Part shown: piece after piece, positions 1 through 12,205 of the stretch
How positions within the stretch are numbered: the first letter of the stretch is position 1
Layout of the letters: every line of letters starts with the position of its first letter
From: Candidatus Pacearchaeota archaeon
GTDB lineage: Archaea; Nanoarchaeota; Nanoarchaeia; Pacearchaeales; GW2011-AR1
Assembly: GCA_002690445.1 (NCBI GenBank)
Contig: NZER01000377.1
Coordinates: forward strand, 1 to 15,057
Reading direction: 5' to 3'
Length of the DNA stretch: 15,057 nucleotides
Position numbers and translations under genes: made by a program
The notes under the pieces: model-generated
What the model was told of the DNA's origin: nothing
What the model saw: the letters and a program-made list of their open reading frames with translations, nothing else
The model's database searches: none

Positions 1-267
1 AGTTACATACGCATATCTTTTCATATAAGATGGGCGTTTTTCTGTAAACTTGAATGCAGGATCATCAGTAGGCTTTTTAGCTACTCTACTTACAAATCGG
101 AAAAACGGGTCTTGTGAAAGTGCTAATTCAGAAACTTGGTCTCCAAAATTATACTTTCTTCTTAGTACGCCAGTATCGAGAGTGCTTCCAGCAGACCCAC
201 CAGAATCAACATCAGCTAAATTCCAATTTGATAGATACAGGGGAGTATCTTTTAATGAACTTGGCAT
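1..267 (-). CDS. Probable major capsid protein, N-terminal part (cut by left edge)
   Basis: An ATG at 267 opens a frame with no stop for 89 codons to the left edge, beginning MPSSLKDTPLYLSNWNLADV. AGGAATAAACATAAA precedes the ATG and supplies a weak ribosome binding site. The segment DPFFRFVSRVAKKPTDDPAF, followed by an aromatic and basic stretch, resembles the N-terminal arm of HK97-fold capsid proteins of environmental phages. The position directly after scaffold and portal is the usual place for the major capsid protein. The assignment rests on gene order and general character; the diagnostic core of the fold lies outside the window. It could instead be another head protein. Confidence 0.6.
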   Translation of the reverse strand, partial: MPSSLKDTPLYLSNWNLADVDSGGSAGSTLDTGVLRRKYNFGDQVSELALSQDPFFRFVSRVAKKPTDDPAFKFTEKRPSYMKRYAYVT

Positions 268-295
268 TTTATGTTTATTCCTTTACATTAAGGGT

Positions 296-1171
296 TTATT
301 GTAATCCTTCAAGACCCTCTATGCTGGAACCTTTAATGGCTTCAAATACCATTTCATCTGCAGTTTGTTCCGATTGTGGAACATTCCCAGACGAAGCTAC
401 GGAAGCAGGTTTTTTACGAACATTTTCCATTTGATTTTTCATTTCCATCCTTGTGTTTTCTGCAATATTCGCATCTCGTTTTTCAAGATTCATCAAGGTA
501 TGGATATCATCCAAAGATAATGGTCTACTTTGGGCATAATTAACAAAGTCTTTATATTCATCACGACTCATTTTATGCCTTTTAACAAACTCAGTTATTT
601 CTCTAGACTTATCCATCTTATCACTGTATTGCTGTGCAAACTGTGAAACTCTCTTTTGAACCTGAGAATCAACGAGACCGTTTAATACTTTTGCAGAATC
701 AGAAGTAGGAGTTGAAATTGCTTCATCAGCATCAAATACAAAATCTTCTGGAAGATTAAAAGCTTTCTTCATATCTCCTGATTCTATATCGGTTCCATTA
801 ATTACATTCTTGATTTTTTCTGCCACAGCAGGGTCTTGTCTCATTCTGTCTAAGATGGGAGCACCTCTTTCTAGTTCCTGATTCCGCTGATTAAGGCGTA
901 CTGCTTCACGACTAGAATCTTTGTACCTCTTTTCCAACTTCGTATATTCTTTCCCTAACTCAGAATTACCTTTACTAGGTTTAGAATTTTTAGTTTCCGA
1001 TTTTTCTTCGACTCTTGGTTTAGGACTTGGAGCAGCACCAGTAATCATTCCGTTTACTTGTGCATCCAGCGAAGAAAAAAAGTCTTCACTGGTAAATCCA
1101 TCGGCGGTTAAGCCGGTTTCTGAACCTGACGTAGGGTTGCTTCCTTGCAAGTTGTCTACATTCTCAGCCAT
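296..1171 (-). CDS. Capsid scaffolding protein (putative)
   Basis: This 291-residue protein is hydrophilic, highly charged and mostly predicted helical. Its N-terminus is low-complexity and acidic (residues 1-50), followed by a Lys/Ser/Glu linker and a coiled-coil-like stretch (about 75-110, GKEYTKLEKRYKDSSREAVR). A second helical stretch lies near residues 165-250, and the tail is Ser/Gln/Glu-rich. This composition, the size and the position between portal and probable capsid gene match phage scaffolding proteins, which guide capsid assembly and then leave the procapsid. AAGGAG lies at a good distance before the ATG. No protease signature is visible, so it looks like a pure scaffold rather than a protease-scaffold fusion. 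The role is inferred from composition and position. Confidence 0.65.
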   Translation of the reverse strand: MAENVDNLQGSNPTSGSETGLTADGFTSEDFFSSLDAQVNGMITGAAPSPKPRVEEKSETKNSKPSKGNSELGKEYTKLEKRYKDSSREAVRLNQRNQELERGAPILDRMRQDPAVAEKIKNVINGTDIESGDMKKAFNLPEDFVFDADEAISTPTSDSAKVLNGLVDSQVQKRVSQFAQQYSDKMDKSREITEFVKRHKMSRDEYKDFVNYAQSRPLSLDDIHTLMNLEKRDANIAENTRMEMKNQMENVRKKPASVASSGNVPQSEQTADEMVFEAIKGSSIEGLEGLQ

Positions 1172-4757: not shown

Positions 4758-5599
4758 TATTGTCCAACTCTATAATTATTCTGTTCTATAACATTCCAAC
4801 TCTCTTCTTCTTTCCAACCATCAATAAGCTTACCTTCCGTATTTTTGACTGGTATCCATCCAGTAGTACTTAAATCTCCACCAGAAATTTTATCACCCTT
4901 TGGTCCATATACTGATTCCAAGTATTGGACAGTTCTACCAATCCTTTTTGAAGCTTTTGAATGACTAGTTCGGCTACTATGTGATTTAGGTGCCATCCAT
5001 TCACTCCCATCCTCCATTTTATAAATTATTGGGCCAACTATATGCTTACCAGCCTCATCTCTTTGTCGTCTTACACTAGCTATCTTTTGTTTACCTAAGT
5101 CAGGTTTTTTAATAACAATATCATTTGGGTCTTTACTATACTTTAACTGTTCTATCATCATACGATTTGATACATCTTCAAAAGATGCTCCCAAAAAACG
5201 CTCAGAAGGTAATGCTTCATCAGCCCATTCATCCCATTTTTGTTTAAAATCACCACCTGCTCCCCAACTTGTTATCTCACGAATATCTCTTCTCTCCATT
5301 CTAGGGTCTGTAGTTGTTTTTTCATAATCACTTGATACATCAACCCATTGATTTGAACCTTTATCCCATTTTTGTTGATTCCATCCTTCCTCATTTTCAC
5401 CCTTAGTTCTTGTCTGAGTATGTTTATCTCCAAGAAAGAAATGCTCTATTATTGCATCCTTGTCTACATATTCCTCCATAGTTCCTTCTACCCATTTACC
5501 TGTCTCCTCATCAGTCCCTCCTTTATCGGCTATCCTTGTAAACTTTTCAGAGATTGGTTTTAAGGAAGAAAAATAATCTTTAAAATCTTTTGGTGGCAT
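4757..5599 (-). CDS. Unrecognised 280-residue protein following the large terminase
   Basis: I do not recognise this protein. It has 280 residues, is soluble and strongly charged, and is rich in Trp, Lys, Glu and Asp. Visible stretches are a glycine-rich acidic N-terminus (about 25-60), a Trp/Gln/Lys stretch around GWNQQKWDKGSNQWVDV (about 92-108), a Ser/His-basic segment near 206-218 (SHSSRTSHSKASKR), and a C-terminus ending NVIEQNNYRVGQ. The ATG overlaps the terminase stop and the stop overlaps the next start, both as TAATG, so it is probably translated together with both. No enzymatic motif or membrane segment is apparent. Confidence 0.75.
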   Translation of the reverse strand: MPPKDFKDYFSSLKPISEKFTRIADKGGTDEETGKWVEGTMEEYVDKDAIIEHFFLGDKHTQTRTKGENEEGWNQQKWDKGSNQWVDVSSDYEKTTTDPRMERRDIREITSWGAGGDFKQKWDEWADEALPSERFLGASFEDVSNRMMIEQLKYSKDPNDIVIKKPDLGKQKIASVRRQRDEAGKHIVGPIIYKMEDGSEWMAPKSHSSRTSHSKASKRIGRTVQYLESVYGPKGDKISGGDLSTTGWIPVKNTEGKLIDGWKEEESWNVIEQNNYRVGQ

Positions 5600-7167
5600 T
5601 ACGCTACTATCCAGCTTTTTGCCTTTTTAATTGGCTTAAACCAGTCTTTTTTATCTTTATTCTTTACCATATTAGGTGGAAACGCATGCAACTGTGCATA
5701 AAACAAGGTTTCGACAGTATCATCATGTGCCATCTTAGGTCCAAATGTAAGTATTTCATTAATTAAATCAAACATATTTTCTCTTAAATGTATTGTTCCC
5801 ATACTAAAACGACCAGAAAGACCCGAATATACCTTATTTCTCTTCTCTCTACCTCCAGGTTTCTCTGGAATTACAGCTATTGAGAACTTATTTAACCTTC
5901 GTCTTTCAGTATTTAATGCTTGAAATATAGAACGGTTCATCGCAACATCTTCAACTGTGGATGATACACAATGATATTTTTCATGCATTTCCATTATATA
6001 GTCAACTACTCCTTTTTTATTAATAAAAGCACCATCGTATCCTTTTGAACCAATAGTAGGGATTGACCTGTGTCTTTCATATTCTAAAACATAAAGATTA
6101 TTATCAGGGTCAATAGCTATAGCCATTATAACACTAAAATCTGAATGTTTTGTATTTATATCTGTTGCAGGGTCACAACCTACAAAGGTATTAATTGGTA
6201 CTTCTTCTCCATCAATAATTAAAAAGTTGGAACTTTTTTCGGTATCGTAATTATAATATCCCTTCCAATATTTTATTTCACTCCTTCTCCAAACTGAATC
6301 TTCTTCACTCTGCACTTCCATCATATATTCTTGGAAGTACTTTTGTGGTTGCCCACTATCTCTATAAAACTTCTTTTTTTCTTCTAATTTACTTTGACTA
6401 AAAAAGGAATCCCAAAGAACACCACCATCAGGCAATTCAGCTTTATATGTTATTACTTTCCAAGCAAACGTTTTATTATTTGCGATAGCCCTTCCATGAT
6501 TAATAAGAAGATTGTTAATAAAAGAATCATAATGTACGGGAGTACCATTAACACGCAACCTGCCAGTATGAGGCTCAAGCGCGGGATAAACCACAGCAGT
6601 AACCAAATTCGCATTTTTATCCCTTGATTCTGGGGTAATTGTATTTTGCTCATGTTCGAAGTCATCAAGGATTATAAGGTCGTACCGTTTGTGAAGTTTT
6701 GCTCCTCCTCTAATTCCTGCAACATTACTTTTCGATATAAGTTTACACCCATTAGTTAACTCAACATCCTCTTCCGTCCATTTATTCCCCTTTAATGCTC
6801 CAAAAAAGTACAATATCTTATCATTGAATTCCAAATGATGTTTGATATAGTCCATATTTCCTACAGAAAGCTTATGAGTAGCAGATACCCATGCATAAAA
6901 GTGCATATCATCTTTAGGACAAAACAAAAAGTCTTTTAATATAGATGCTTTTGTTAGTACAGTTTTTCCATGACCTCTAGGTAAAATAATAGCTAACTGC
7001 TTAACATTTGCATTATCAATAGAATCTGCCATTTCATAATGAAAGAATGGAGTTTCGCTTCTTAAAAAATCATTAGGAAGAAATAACTTCCCAAATGCTA
7101 TCAAATCTTTATGTGCTAGTTCTAGCTGATTTTCTGCGTTTGTAATGTTTTCTGTATTTATATTCAT
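5599..7167 (-). CDS. terL: Terminase large subunit (packaging ATPase/nuclease)
   Basis: This 522-residue protein is the DNA-packaging motor. The ATPase half shows a Walker A motif (LPRGHGKT, 62-69), Walker B with the catalytic acid (LIILDDFEH, 164-172) and a coupling motif (VNGTP, 206-210). The nuclease half has the RNase H-like acidic residues: Asp332 in GCDPATD, Glu406 in VEDVAMNRS, and Asp482/Asp483 in MAHDDTVETL. Together with the portal it pumps DNA into the procapsid and cuts the concatemer. The start at 7167 has no clear ribosome binding site, and the 79 bases before it are very AT-rich; the next in-frame Met is residue 46, too late for the fold. The downstream gene is coupled by TAATG. 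Confidence 0.95.
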   Translation of the reverse strand: MNINTENITNAENQLELAHKDLIAFGKLFLPNDFLRSETPFFHYEMADSIDNANVKQLAIILPRGHGKTVLTKASILKDFLFCPKDDMHFYAWVSATHKLSVGNMDYIKHHLEFNDKILYFFGALKGNKWTEEDVELTNGCKLISKSNVAGIRGGAKLHKRYDLIILDDFEHEQNTITPESRDKNANLVTAVVYPALEPHTGRLRVNGTPVHYDSFINNLLINHGRAIANNKTFAWKVITYKAELPDGGVLWDSFFSQSKLEEKKKFYRDSGQPQKYFQEYMMEVQSEEDSVWRRSEIKYWKGYYNYDTEKSSNFLIIDGEEVPINTFVGCDPATDINTKHSDFSVIMAIAIDPDNNLYVLEYERHRSIPTIGSKGYDGAFINKKGVVDYIMEMHEKYHCVSSTVEDVAMNRSIFQALNTERRRLNKFSIAVIPEKPGGREKRNKVYSGLSGRFSMGTIHLRENMFDLINEILTFGPKMAHDDTVETLFYAQLHAFPPNMVKNKDKKDWFKPIKKAKSWIVA

Positions 7168-10596: not shown

Positions 10597-10917
10597 ATGA
10601 AAGAAATCAAAGCACTCATCGAAATCGGTGGTAAACTCAATCCAGTACGTCTCTTGATTGACAGCGTACAGCACACAATTGGTGTGAATGTCTTCGTGAT
10701 GGTTCAGTTCATCCGTAAGGACGGCACTTTAGGTGGCAAACAGATGTGGACTCCAGCATTGATTGCAAGTTCACAGAAAGCGTACGTTGACCAAGCAAGC
10801 ATTGAGAGTGATTTTGACGCTCGTGTATTGGCTAAATTCAGTACCGTTGAAGACACAGGTGACAGCGTGTCCGAAGTTGAAGAGCCAACAGACGAAGGTG
10901 AAAGCACCAACGAGTAA
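10597..10917 (+). CDS. Orphan 106-residue protein with atypical composition
   Basis: ATG at 10597 is preceded by AGAAGG at a fair distance; a TTG ten codons earlier is less likely. The product begins MKEIKALIEIGGKLNPVRLL. Its first 85 residues predict an alpha/beta fold with hydrophobic strands (NVFVMVQFIRKDGTLGG), and the last 25 are acidic and probably flexible (VEEPTDEGESTNE). The coding sequence is visibly richer in G and C than its neighbours, and its three arginines all use CGT where most neighbouring genes prefer AGA. This could mean separate acquisition or selection for high expression. It stands alone before the structured RNA region. I do not recognise it; neither membrane segments nor metal-binding cysteines are present. 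Confidence 0.75.
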   Translation: MKEIKALIEIGGKLNPVRLLIDSVQHTIGVNVFVMVQFIRKDGTLGGKQMWTPALIASSQKAYVDQASIESDFDARVLAKFSTVEDTGDSVSEVEEPTDEGESTNE

Positions 10918-10918
10918 A

Positions 10919-10990
10919 GTCGGTAGCACACACTCAATTGGTAGGGCAGAGGGGGCACTTCGGTGTCCTCTCGTCCATTTTGTGCAAGTA
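10919..10990 (+). other. tRNA D-arm-like sequence joined to a TTCG hairpin
   Basis: CTCAATTGGTAGGGCAG (10933-10949) closely resembles a tRNA D-arm. A ten-pair hairpin with a TTCG loop follows directly where an anticodon arm would be, and GCACA (10927-10931) can pair with TGTGC (10981-10985) to enclose both. No T-arm, anticodon loop or CCA-side acceptor is visible, so this is not a working tRNA by inspection. It may be a tRNA remnant, a tRNA-like domain of the adjoining large RNA, or a chance match. Confidence 0.4.
10949..10972 (+). terminator. Strong TTCG-capped hairpin, terminator-like
   Basis: GAGGGGGCAC (10949-10958) pairs with GTGTCCTCTC (10963-10972) over ten base pairs, three of them G-T, closed by a cTTCGg loop, one of the most stable tetraloops. 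It starts 32 bases after the stop of the 106-residue gene. The following sequence is GTCCATTTTG, so the T tract is only four long and offset. It could be a weak intrinsic terminator, a 5' boundary of the downstream RNA, or a processing or protection element. Confidence 0.45.
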
Positions 10991-11040: not shown

Positions 11041-11850
11041 AAGAATTGTGTATAACTTGGGCATAAACAGTCCAAATAGATTTTAGAGTCGCTTGACATT
11101 AAACTAAAGGGGCGTCAGTCCGAAAGTCCCAGACTCTACAGCAAGGATAGAGTAAGATATATACTGCAGTATATTCGCTAGAATGATGGTACTAAGCCTT
11201 GAAGAAGCGAGGGTCTTACTCTATTCCTTTAGTCTGAAGAGATAGAAGGTTAATAGTTAACGTGGCAAACCTCAGACACCACTACCTTGAAAACTATCGA
11301 CAATCTTGTGTTTATAAGCACGAGTTGTTTTGGTACTATGCAAAGGGGGTAATTTGTGAAGAACCACAGATTATACTCGAGTTGTGTAGCGACTCTATCT
11401 CTTCTAACATTTAGATATAAGACGGTGCAACCGACAACAAGGTGGCAATTAGGTATCTATTTCTAATGTGTAGAATATGGATTGAACTCCGCATTTGACA
11501 CAGGTAGTGACAGTGATGAGATGATATCTATTGTCACCTTTAATAATTAAGATGGGGGATGGTTTCACTACACAAGTGGAATAACCAAGATTGGTCTTCA
11601 ACGCCATCTACATCTTATTATGGAGTAACGAATGAAGTGGTTTGAAGAAATACGAAGGAAGGCTGGTCACTATAATCCTACAGCCTATTTATTTGGGGTA
11701 GTTAAAAGAATCCTTGACCAGTCGCACAGCATACTGTTTGCATAGGGACGATGAGGTATCATCGTATAGGTGAGCGAGTTATGTCGCTTATAAAGAACGC
11801 CTAACAACCTATATTGGTTGCATATTCAATACTACCCCAATACTTTAATT
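11041..11850 (+). ncRNA. Candidate giant structured noncoding RNA (GOLLD/ROOL-like in size and setting)
   Basis: About 800 bases with no convincing gene are filled with nested helices read directly from the sequence. Examples are 11084-11090 with 11132-11138 (7 pairs), 11145-11157 with 11214-11226 (13 pairs), 11232-11237 with 11272-11277, 11300-11310 with 11319-11328, 11350-11358 with 11365-11373 (9 pairs), 11402-11417 with 11454-11475 (16 pairs, two bulges), 11507-11512 with 11532-11537, and 11548-11554 with 11611-11617. A 3' domain is closed by 11693-11702 with 11831-11840 (10 perfect pairs) and contains the hairpins 11748-11765, 11767-11803 and 11805-11820. Size, phage location and the nearby tRNA-like element recall GOLLD RNA, known from phages and aquatic metagenomes, and the ROOL class. 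I could not align it to either, so the class is open. The strand is chosen from the direction of flanking genes. No intron hallmarks or split gene are seen. Ends are approximate. Confidence 0.7.
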
Positions 11851-11869
11851 AACAACAAAGGAGAATAAG

Positions 11870-12205
11870 ATGAACTTACTAACAGCATCAATATTTATAG
11901 CAGTGTGTATCGCAGTATCATATGGTTATTGGTTAGAACTCTATCAAGATATCAAAGCATCATTAACATTTGATGTAAATAAACTATCATTCAACCCAGA
12001 ATATGTATGTCATCACGGTGAAGGTGCAATATGTGAGAAATGTGCAGGTAAACACGGAATTGACTTTGAACAAATATACCGATACTCTGTACTTGATAAT
12101 TGCACTTGTAAATATAAAATGGACGCTGAGAACATATTTATACAAGAAATACTTAAACCAGACCACAATTGTATAGCACACGGTGTTTGGAAGGAGGATG
12201 AATAA
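11870..12205 (+). CDS. Membrane-anchored Cys/His-rich protein
   Basis: This 111-residue protein starts at an ATG preceded by AAAGGAG, the clearest ribosome binding site of the rightward block. Residues about 3-20 form one hydrophobic segment (LLTASIFIAVCIAVSYGYW), probably a membrane anchor. The rest is soluble and holds CHHGEGAICEKCAGKHG (about 47-63), then CTC near 88-90 and HNCIAH near 99-104. This spacing suggests a metal site, perhaps zinc, although it matches no finger I can name. It is the first gene after the large RNA and is coupled to the next by TAATG. Function is unknown. Confidence 0.78.
   Translation: MNLLTASIFIAVCIAVSYGYWLELYQDIKASLTFDVNKLSFNPEYVCHHGEGAICEKCAGKHGIDFEQIYRYSVLDNCTCKYKMDAENIFIQEILKPDHNCIAHGVWKEDE

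Follow-up and report, generated by a model that had tools for sequence, protein, structure and literature searches.

The stretch at approximately positions 11059-11840 of the window (the whole 15,057-nt stretch of DNA analysed here) is probably a phage noncoding RNA locus, that is, a slot in the phage genome that here holds a large RNA whose 3' module, denoted R1 (11767..11803, plus strand), is conserved. At the level of sequence comparison, R1 is demonstrably a conserved RNA structure of the plus strand that occurs in divergent phages and occupies a fixed position within one phage group. The presence of a structured noncoding RNA in a phage, which had been proposed for positions 11041 to 11850 in a sequence-only reading, is supported most strongly by the covariation in R1 and additionally by a promoter-like motif at the 5' end.

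The phage and the surroundings of the locus

The 15,057-base contig is a virus record that carries genes for the large terminase subunit (5599-7167, minus strand), a portal protein, a small terminase subunit and an endolysin-like protein. Database searches yielded 1255 relatives of the terminase (E<=0.001), and the 120 listed include Tara sources; GenBank phages were represented by distant terminase matches only (23-26% identity among the matches listed, and all 309 below 60%). We take the window to be part of a large uncultured phage group that, judging from the source names, is apparently marine. One 111-kb viral contig carries two different terminase relatives (L007 and L020) about 60 kb apart and is either a chimera or a case of joined phage genomes.

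Just 5' of the proposed RNA lies a gene for a small, 106-aa protein (10597..10917, plus strand) that has two close database relatives, the longest contigs of which measure 988 and 2117 nt; no viral relatives were found with this protein as bait. The gene is followed by a terminator-like UUCG hairpin with a weak T-run (10949..10972, plus strand) that separates it from the RNA. By eye, the stretch at 10925-10985, directly after the small gene, is tRNA-like, with a D-arm-like ACTCAATTGGTAGGGC and matching ends (GCACA/TGTGC), and a long UUCG hairpin occupies the place of an anticodon arm; ARAGORN made no call here, and no tRNA was found in the window.

The transcript probably starts at a phage-type promoter, the motif TGTGTATAACTTGGGCATA (11047..11065, plus strand) that is shared with relatives of this phage. 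The RNA itself would span 11059..11841 (about 780 nt, plus strand), with the 5' end placed at the GGG of the promoter-like motif and the 3' end at the leader of the following gene. This leader, ACTTTAATTAACAACAAAGGAGAATAAG (11842..11869, plus strand), resembles that of a relative with an empty slot (L147) and precedes the first downstream gene, which encodes a 111-aa protein without a PHROGs match (11870..12205, plus strand). As the sequence-only reading had it, there is no convincing gene within 11041-11850, where the frames of at least 50 aa are one of 50 aa on the plus strand and one of 52 aa on the minus strand. The folded region also contains an ATG frame of 37 aa (11632-11745), preceded by GGAG, that may encode a small protein or have arisen by chance; by our estimate, a frame of this kind is not unusual.

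R1, a conserved RNA structure

R1 is a compact element of the plus strand that consists of an outer helix P1 (11767-11772/11798-11803), an inner helix P2 (11773-11777/11784-11788), a hexaloop (11778-11783) that reads mostly GUAAUG across loci, and an invariant 9-nt bulge on the 3' side, UAUAAAGAA (11789-11797). The helices are composed of GGUG/CGCC with variable outer pairs, followed by AGCNN/NNGCU.

An alignment of 11 R1 sequences, including that of the window (the copy in L120, nearly identical to that in L118, was omitted), contains 25 invariant columns, and 92.7% of the cells in the paired positions form pairs. The covariation score of this alignment is 0.522, compared to 0.145 in shuffled alignments (none of 500 as high) and 0.064-0.118 for the same structure slid along the sequence; two-sided changes were detected in 37 cells, compared to 14.1 in the shuffles (again, none of 500 as high). 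The number of pairs with two-sided changes, eight, was equalled by 36 of the 500 shuffles and is the less striking measure. RNAalifold, run without the structure being supplied, predicted the same helices. G-U pairs account for 24 of the 152 paired cells on the R1 strand (11 of these represent one invariant pair) and become A-C on the opposite strand, which fixes the R1 strand as the one read from the promoter-like motif. In isolation, P1 and P2 fold in 10 of 11 loci; P1 is poorly predicted in L123 (P 0.00-0.29). Searches with R1 against Rfam produced no matches at the gathering score in 10 R1 loci, and a slice of L083 gave three matches with E 4.8-9.9, far under the gathering scores and none of them over R1 on the R1 strand.

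Distribution and genomic contexts of R1

The first R1 homologue was a 39-nt blastn match in L041, found in a search of the terminase relatives. Altogether, R1 was identified in 10 other phage contigs (L041, L082, L083, L115, L118, L120, L121, L123, L124 and L127) and in one bacterial single-cell contig (L096). Pattern scans gave 16 matches in IMG/VR viral contigs, of which 10 were kept, and 31 in genome contigs, of which one (L096) was kept; the 36 matches dropped by eye score at most 27.5 bits with the R1 covariance model (L099 being the best), against at least 54.2 for those kept, and a weak true member may yet be among them. With this model, 12 copies, that of the window included, were recovered from 91 sources at E<=7.7e-13, and the next best match had an E of 4.3; because 11 of the 12 copies were used to build the model and L120 nearly repeats L118, this result demonstrates a clean gap rather than independent recovery. 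R1 is single-copy in each of the 11 matching records (18 were searched), and a second, differently relaxed pattern added no new contig. Among 79 relatives collected by the small terminase subunit, no sequence scored above 20.8 bits. At E<=1e-7, the 395 genomes of the order to which L096 belongs gave one match, in the genome of L096 itself, in a scan that scored at most 14 candidates per genome under strict filters, such that weak copies may escape. Another genome scan with strict filters (at most 64 candidates per genome scored; again, weak copies may escape) yielded a match, G030/L208, that was rejected as lying antisense inside a gene that, from reading the frame, we take to be uvrA.

In all seven distinct contigs with terminase genes of the group (the window, L041, L082, L083, L115, L118 and L121; L120 duplicates L118), R1 is divergent from the small-terminase match and is located approximately 0.8-2.4 kb upstream of it. 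The large terminase subunits encoded in those of these contigs that contain the gene are 58-78% identical to that of the window, and the L118 contig, in which the small subunit alone is present, shows 50% identity. The terminase of L127 is distant (31%), and in L123 and L124 (records of 148 and 181 kb) no relative was detectable. The copy at L096:889-945 lies in a single-cell contig from the Cryomorphaceae, where two convergent bacterial genes surround it, and its flanks resemble those in the phage contigs L123 and L124.

The immediate surroundings of R1 bear on the possibility that the region serves as an extended leader acting in cis on the gene at 11870, the translation or transcription of which it would control. 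No terminator was found 3' of the RNA in the window, so the RNA may belong to the mRNA of the next gene, and the distance from the end of the stretch matched by the R1 model to the next frame of at least 40 aa is 32-120 nt in the window, L041, L083, L115, L118, L127 and L120 (the near-duplicate of L118); both observations speak for a leader. However, in L123, L124 and L096, R1 is, by eye, immediately followed by a terminator-like hairpin, and a convergent gene lies about 100 nt further along; the downstream frames also differ between R1 loci; these observations make a pure leader role less likely, and we consider this explanation doubtful.

Counted from the nearest upstream frame of at least 60 aa, the noncoding stretch that precedes R1 exceeds 700 nt in the window and is no longer than 265 nt at any of the remaining 11 loci; in L083, R1 is nothing more than a stem-loop of some 60 nt with a T-run after it. 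Among the 12 R1 loci, the window alone has approximately 630 nt of additional folded sequence ahead of R1.

A putative slot for noncoding RNAs

In relatives of the phage, the motif TGTGTATAACTTGGGCATA heads either a divergent operon or noncoding inserts: what comes after it is a gene start, tRNAs or noncoding sequence of unrelated kinds. The core of the motif (at most one mismatch) occurs at 23 sites in the 79 small-terminase relatives, a set that contains near-duplicate contigs, compared to 1.05 in mononucleotide-shuffled sequence, and 17 of the 23 sites are on the divergent strand. Under looser criteria, a site is found 0.5-2.2 kb upstream of the small terminase gene in 50 of the 79 loci. 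In 20 of these loci, the start of a gene with a ribosome-binding site is no more than 100 nt away from this site, and in 22 it comes only further on (some of the latter are doubtful, L135 and L136 having a possible early start and several contigs being near-duplicates); the stored stretches of the remaining eight show no gene start. By eye, a similar site was noticed in L041 and L082, but 3' rather than 5' of R1.

Two pairs of loci, L147/L144 and L191/L189, represent the same site without and with an insert, with both flanks in common, although the L147/L144 alignment includes a gap-placement error of the aligner. A third candidate pair, L155/L154, was rejected because only the promoter side is shared and the following genes differ. 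The inserts are mosaic: one module is found directly after the promoter-like motif in L133, after another module in L134 and after a tRNA in L140. A second module, promoter-proximal in L138, L192 and L195, is located further downstream in L156 and L200. tRNA genes were detected in 7 of 39 loci and in 2 of 7 further loci, and in six of these nine (L133, L140, L180, L192, L195 and L200) the tRNA lies within the insert; the Rfam scans of relatives gave one tRNA, in L076. The stretches L048:2081-2581 and L076:4251-4890 (minus strand) are 95% identical to each other both in a 5' hairpin region of 76 nt and over some 330 nt on the 3' side, and their middles are unrelated and differ in length.

Such changes in the order and neighbours of modules, along with the occurrence of R1 elsewhere in short noncoding stretches, are compatible with a cassette slot in which several small RNAs, independent of one another, are arranged in tandem; they would be processed or would act individually, and R1 would be the last in the series. 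Counting against an array is the 5' sequence of the window, which was found nowhere else in nhmmer and blastn searches of the relatives or around two exact words in IMG/VR, and we regard this alternative as a serious possibility rather than a probable one.

Long ORF-poor gaps at the slot have folding z-scores of -4.3 (L023), -5.6 (L076), -3.6 (L057) and -2.6 (L048). In a survey of 30 ORF-poor gaps (12 shuffles each), the sense strand reached z<=-4 in four and folded better than the antisense strand in 26. For the promoter-linked inserts, the mean z is -1.60 in sense and -0.77 in antisense, with the sense strand folding better in 17 of 22 cases, which are not independent; compared with coding controls, the difference is not significant (-1.60 vs -1.28, p 0.15).

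Two further observations were made on noncoding sequences in this collection. A recurrent second motif, which holds GGACTCCGCA or GGACTCCGTA flanked by complementary arms that differ between loci, is present at L150:4356, L166:724, L187:3413, L171:4668 and L083:10998. The stretch L176:317-1160 (minus strand) appears, by eye, to contain two noncoding RNAs, the first of which ends in a terminator-like hairpin; a promoter-like GACTTGGGCAT then leads into the other, a stretch of about 560 nt.

Folding of the region and the 5' part of the RNA

The predicted structure of the region is dominated by local helices. These are a 16-pair bulged stem with apical hairpins (11143..11229, paired as 11143-11158/11213-11229; mean P 0.92), a 13-pair hairpin (11299..11329, paired as 11299-11312/11317-11329; mean P 0.93), an 11-pair hairpin (11347..11376; mean P 0.87) and a long stem of 23 pairs (11439..11540, paired as 11439-11463/11518-11540; mean P 0.92) with an inner 13-pair hairpin (11467-11502; mean P 0.94), all on the plus strand. 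R1 is embedded in a 146-nt 3' domain (11694..11839, plus strand) closed by a perfect stem (11694-11702/11831-11839; P 0.95). Long-range pairing is weak (11075-11081/11687-11693, P 0.61; 11377-11392/11565-11580, P 0.44). The 13-pair and 16-pair stems named in the sequence-only reading are present and the 3' closure amounts to nine pairs, with a tenth possible, instead of a firm ten; the more than 15 helices nesting in order that it described did not emerge, the confident helices being local.

That reading had also held the structure to be far in excess of expectation. Indeed, the minimum free energy of 11059-11845 on the plus strand is lower than that of all 200 shuffles of equal dinucleotide composition (z -5.48), whereas the antisense strand has a z of -2.75, with one of 200 shuffles as low, a clear strand asymmetry. 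Smaller shuffle sets gave z-scores of -8.6 (20 shuffles), -6.7 (12) and -4.9 (60), the first of which is inflated by the small sample. However, coding controls from the window behave similarly: the stretch 1-787 (minus strand) has a z of -4.55, with none of 200 shuffles as low, an unusually low folding energy for a coding stretch, and 1-810 (minus strand) scored -7.5 with 12 shuffles, below the region in the same survey. Moreover, the number of pairs with P>0.9, 91, is inside the range of the shuffles (mean 69.7, maximum 128, n=60), and that with P>0.5, 179, is below the shuffle mean of 189.2. Given a coding segment with a z of -4.6 and confident pairs no more common than in shuffles, the folding energy is no proof of a giant RNA.

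Comparative support within the region is confined to R1: compensatory changes were revealed in this module, and no homologue of the 5' part of about 630 nt was found among the sequences covered, which may lack records very close to the window. The search of the relatives with nhmmer and blastn returned R1 along with short matches to the promoter-like motif and the 3' leader. In blastn searches with the whole region, phages gave only matches of 36 and 28 bases (E 4 and 0.3), and plasmids gave none at E<=1. Two exact words of 16 and 17 bases from the 5' part, a thin sampling of it, occur in 30 and 4 viral contigs of IMG/VR, with blastn similarity around them extending over at most 34 bases.

The absence of similarity outside R1, apart from those short matches, and the comparable behaviour of controls and shuffles would be expected if R1 alone were functional and the other approximately 630 nt were a non-functional spacer that folds well by chance. 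We find this unlikely in view of the z of -5.5 unmatched by any of 200 shuffles, the strand asymmetry, the five helices of 11-23 pairs with P of 0.87-0.94, and the noncoding inserts that relatives carry at the same place. The 5' part may belong to a single molecule or consist of successive modules. At the other extreme, all of the approximately 780 nt could form one fold, a single giant ornate RNA like GOLLD or ROOL that assembles into homo-oligomers. The size, the phage location, the low folding energy and the tRNAs at the same position in several relatives speak for such an RNA, as does the organisation with a conserved 3' and a variable 5' part, which is reported for GOLLD (PMC12286853). 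Nevertheless, the lack of an Rfam match, the weakness of the long-range helices next to confident local ones and the existence of R1 as a bare stem-loop make a single giant fold improbable.

Possible function and significance

Under the reading that we favour, a slot occupied by a large RNA with R1 at its 3' end, the RNA would comprise a series of local stem-loop domains followed by the closed 3' domain that carries R1, and the variable 5' part would consist of added structured modules. The genome position would be a slot with one promoter-like motif and interchangeable contents, pieces of which recur in different combinations. We infer that the RNA acts in trans and that the invariant bulge UAUAAAGAA is a binding surface for a host or phage factor. 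The preferred function is that the RNA binds a host factor during infection and diverts or scaffolds it, as opposed to serving as a switch for the next gene. A role in counter-defence is a hypothesis suggested by slot variability alone. As a speculative extension, in which we place little confidence, a widespread, apparently marine phage group could maintain a dedicated RNA slot with a conserved promoter and interchangeable modules (R1, others and tRNAs) that are gained, lost and recombined like the contents of an anti-defence island; the window would then hold the largest R1-bearing set, and the RNAs would be trans-acting decoys or scaffolds directed against variable host factors.

R1 is a new, small and well-defined RNA structure without an Rfam match, and its invariant unpaired bases invite a search for a binding partner. 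The locus points to a variable site that carries different noncoding RNAs in a widespread phage group, and related phages, in which one promoter-like motif occurs either with an insert or without it, provide a natural experiment. Should these RNAs act against host defences or divert host factors, RNA-based phage tools would be obtainable from the site; if the RNA of the window is one molecule, it would be an addition to the few known giant phage RNAs.

Comparison with known systems

A literature search that was not thorough brought no paper on R1 or the RNA slot to our notice. The region, scanned both in isolation and as part of the window, has no match in Rfam 15 at E<=10, GOLLD and ROOL included. 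Because GOLLD and ROOL profiles, along with those of OLE, are in Rfam (PMC12286853), their covariance models bear directly on membership, and the suggestion that the RNA is a divergent GOLLD or ROOL is unsupported at this threshold.

Like GOLLD, the RNA of the window is large and phage-borne. GOLLD is described in PMC12286853 as combining a conserved 3' region with a variable 5' region and assembling into an RNA-only 14-mer cage, and ROOL as an RNA-only nanocage. The window RNA may resemble the former arrangement in that R1 is conserved at the 3' end and the 5' part has no homologue, but its 3' motif does not match GOLLD and, in contrast to GOLLD, also stands in short noncoding stretches. GOLLD is often found near phage tRNAs; the window has none, and tRNAs occupy the same position in some relatives. 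The ROOL nanocage is an octamer. The window RNA shares with ROOL the large size, the phage location and, in some relatives, nearby tRNAs, and differs from it in the lack of a covariance-model match.

Phage RNA-based counter-defence, including RNA anti-CRISPRs and decoy RNAs, likewise involves variable small RNA genes at a phage promoter; the region differs from these in matching no Rfam family. Phage tRNA genes, which the window itself lacks, are similar in being noncoding RNA genes at a variable site, where, in the relatives, they lie within inserts that follow the promoter-like motif.
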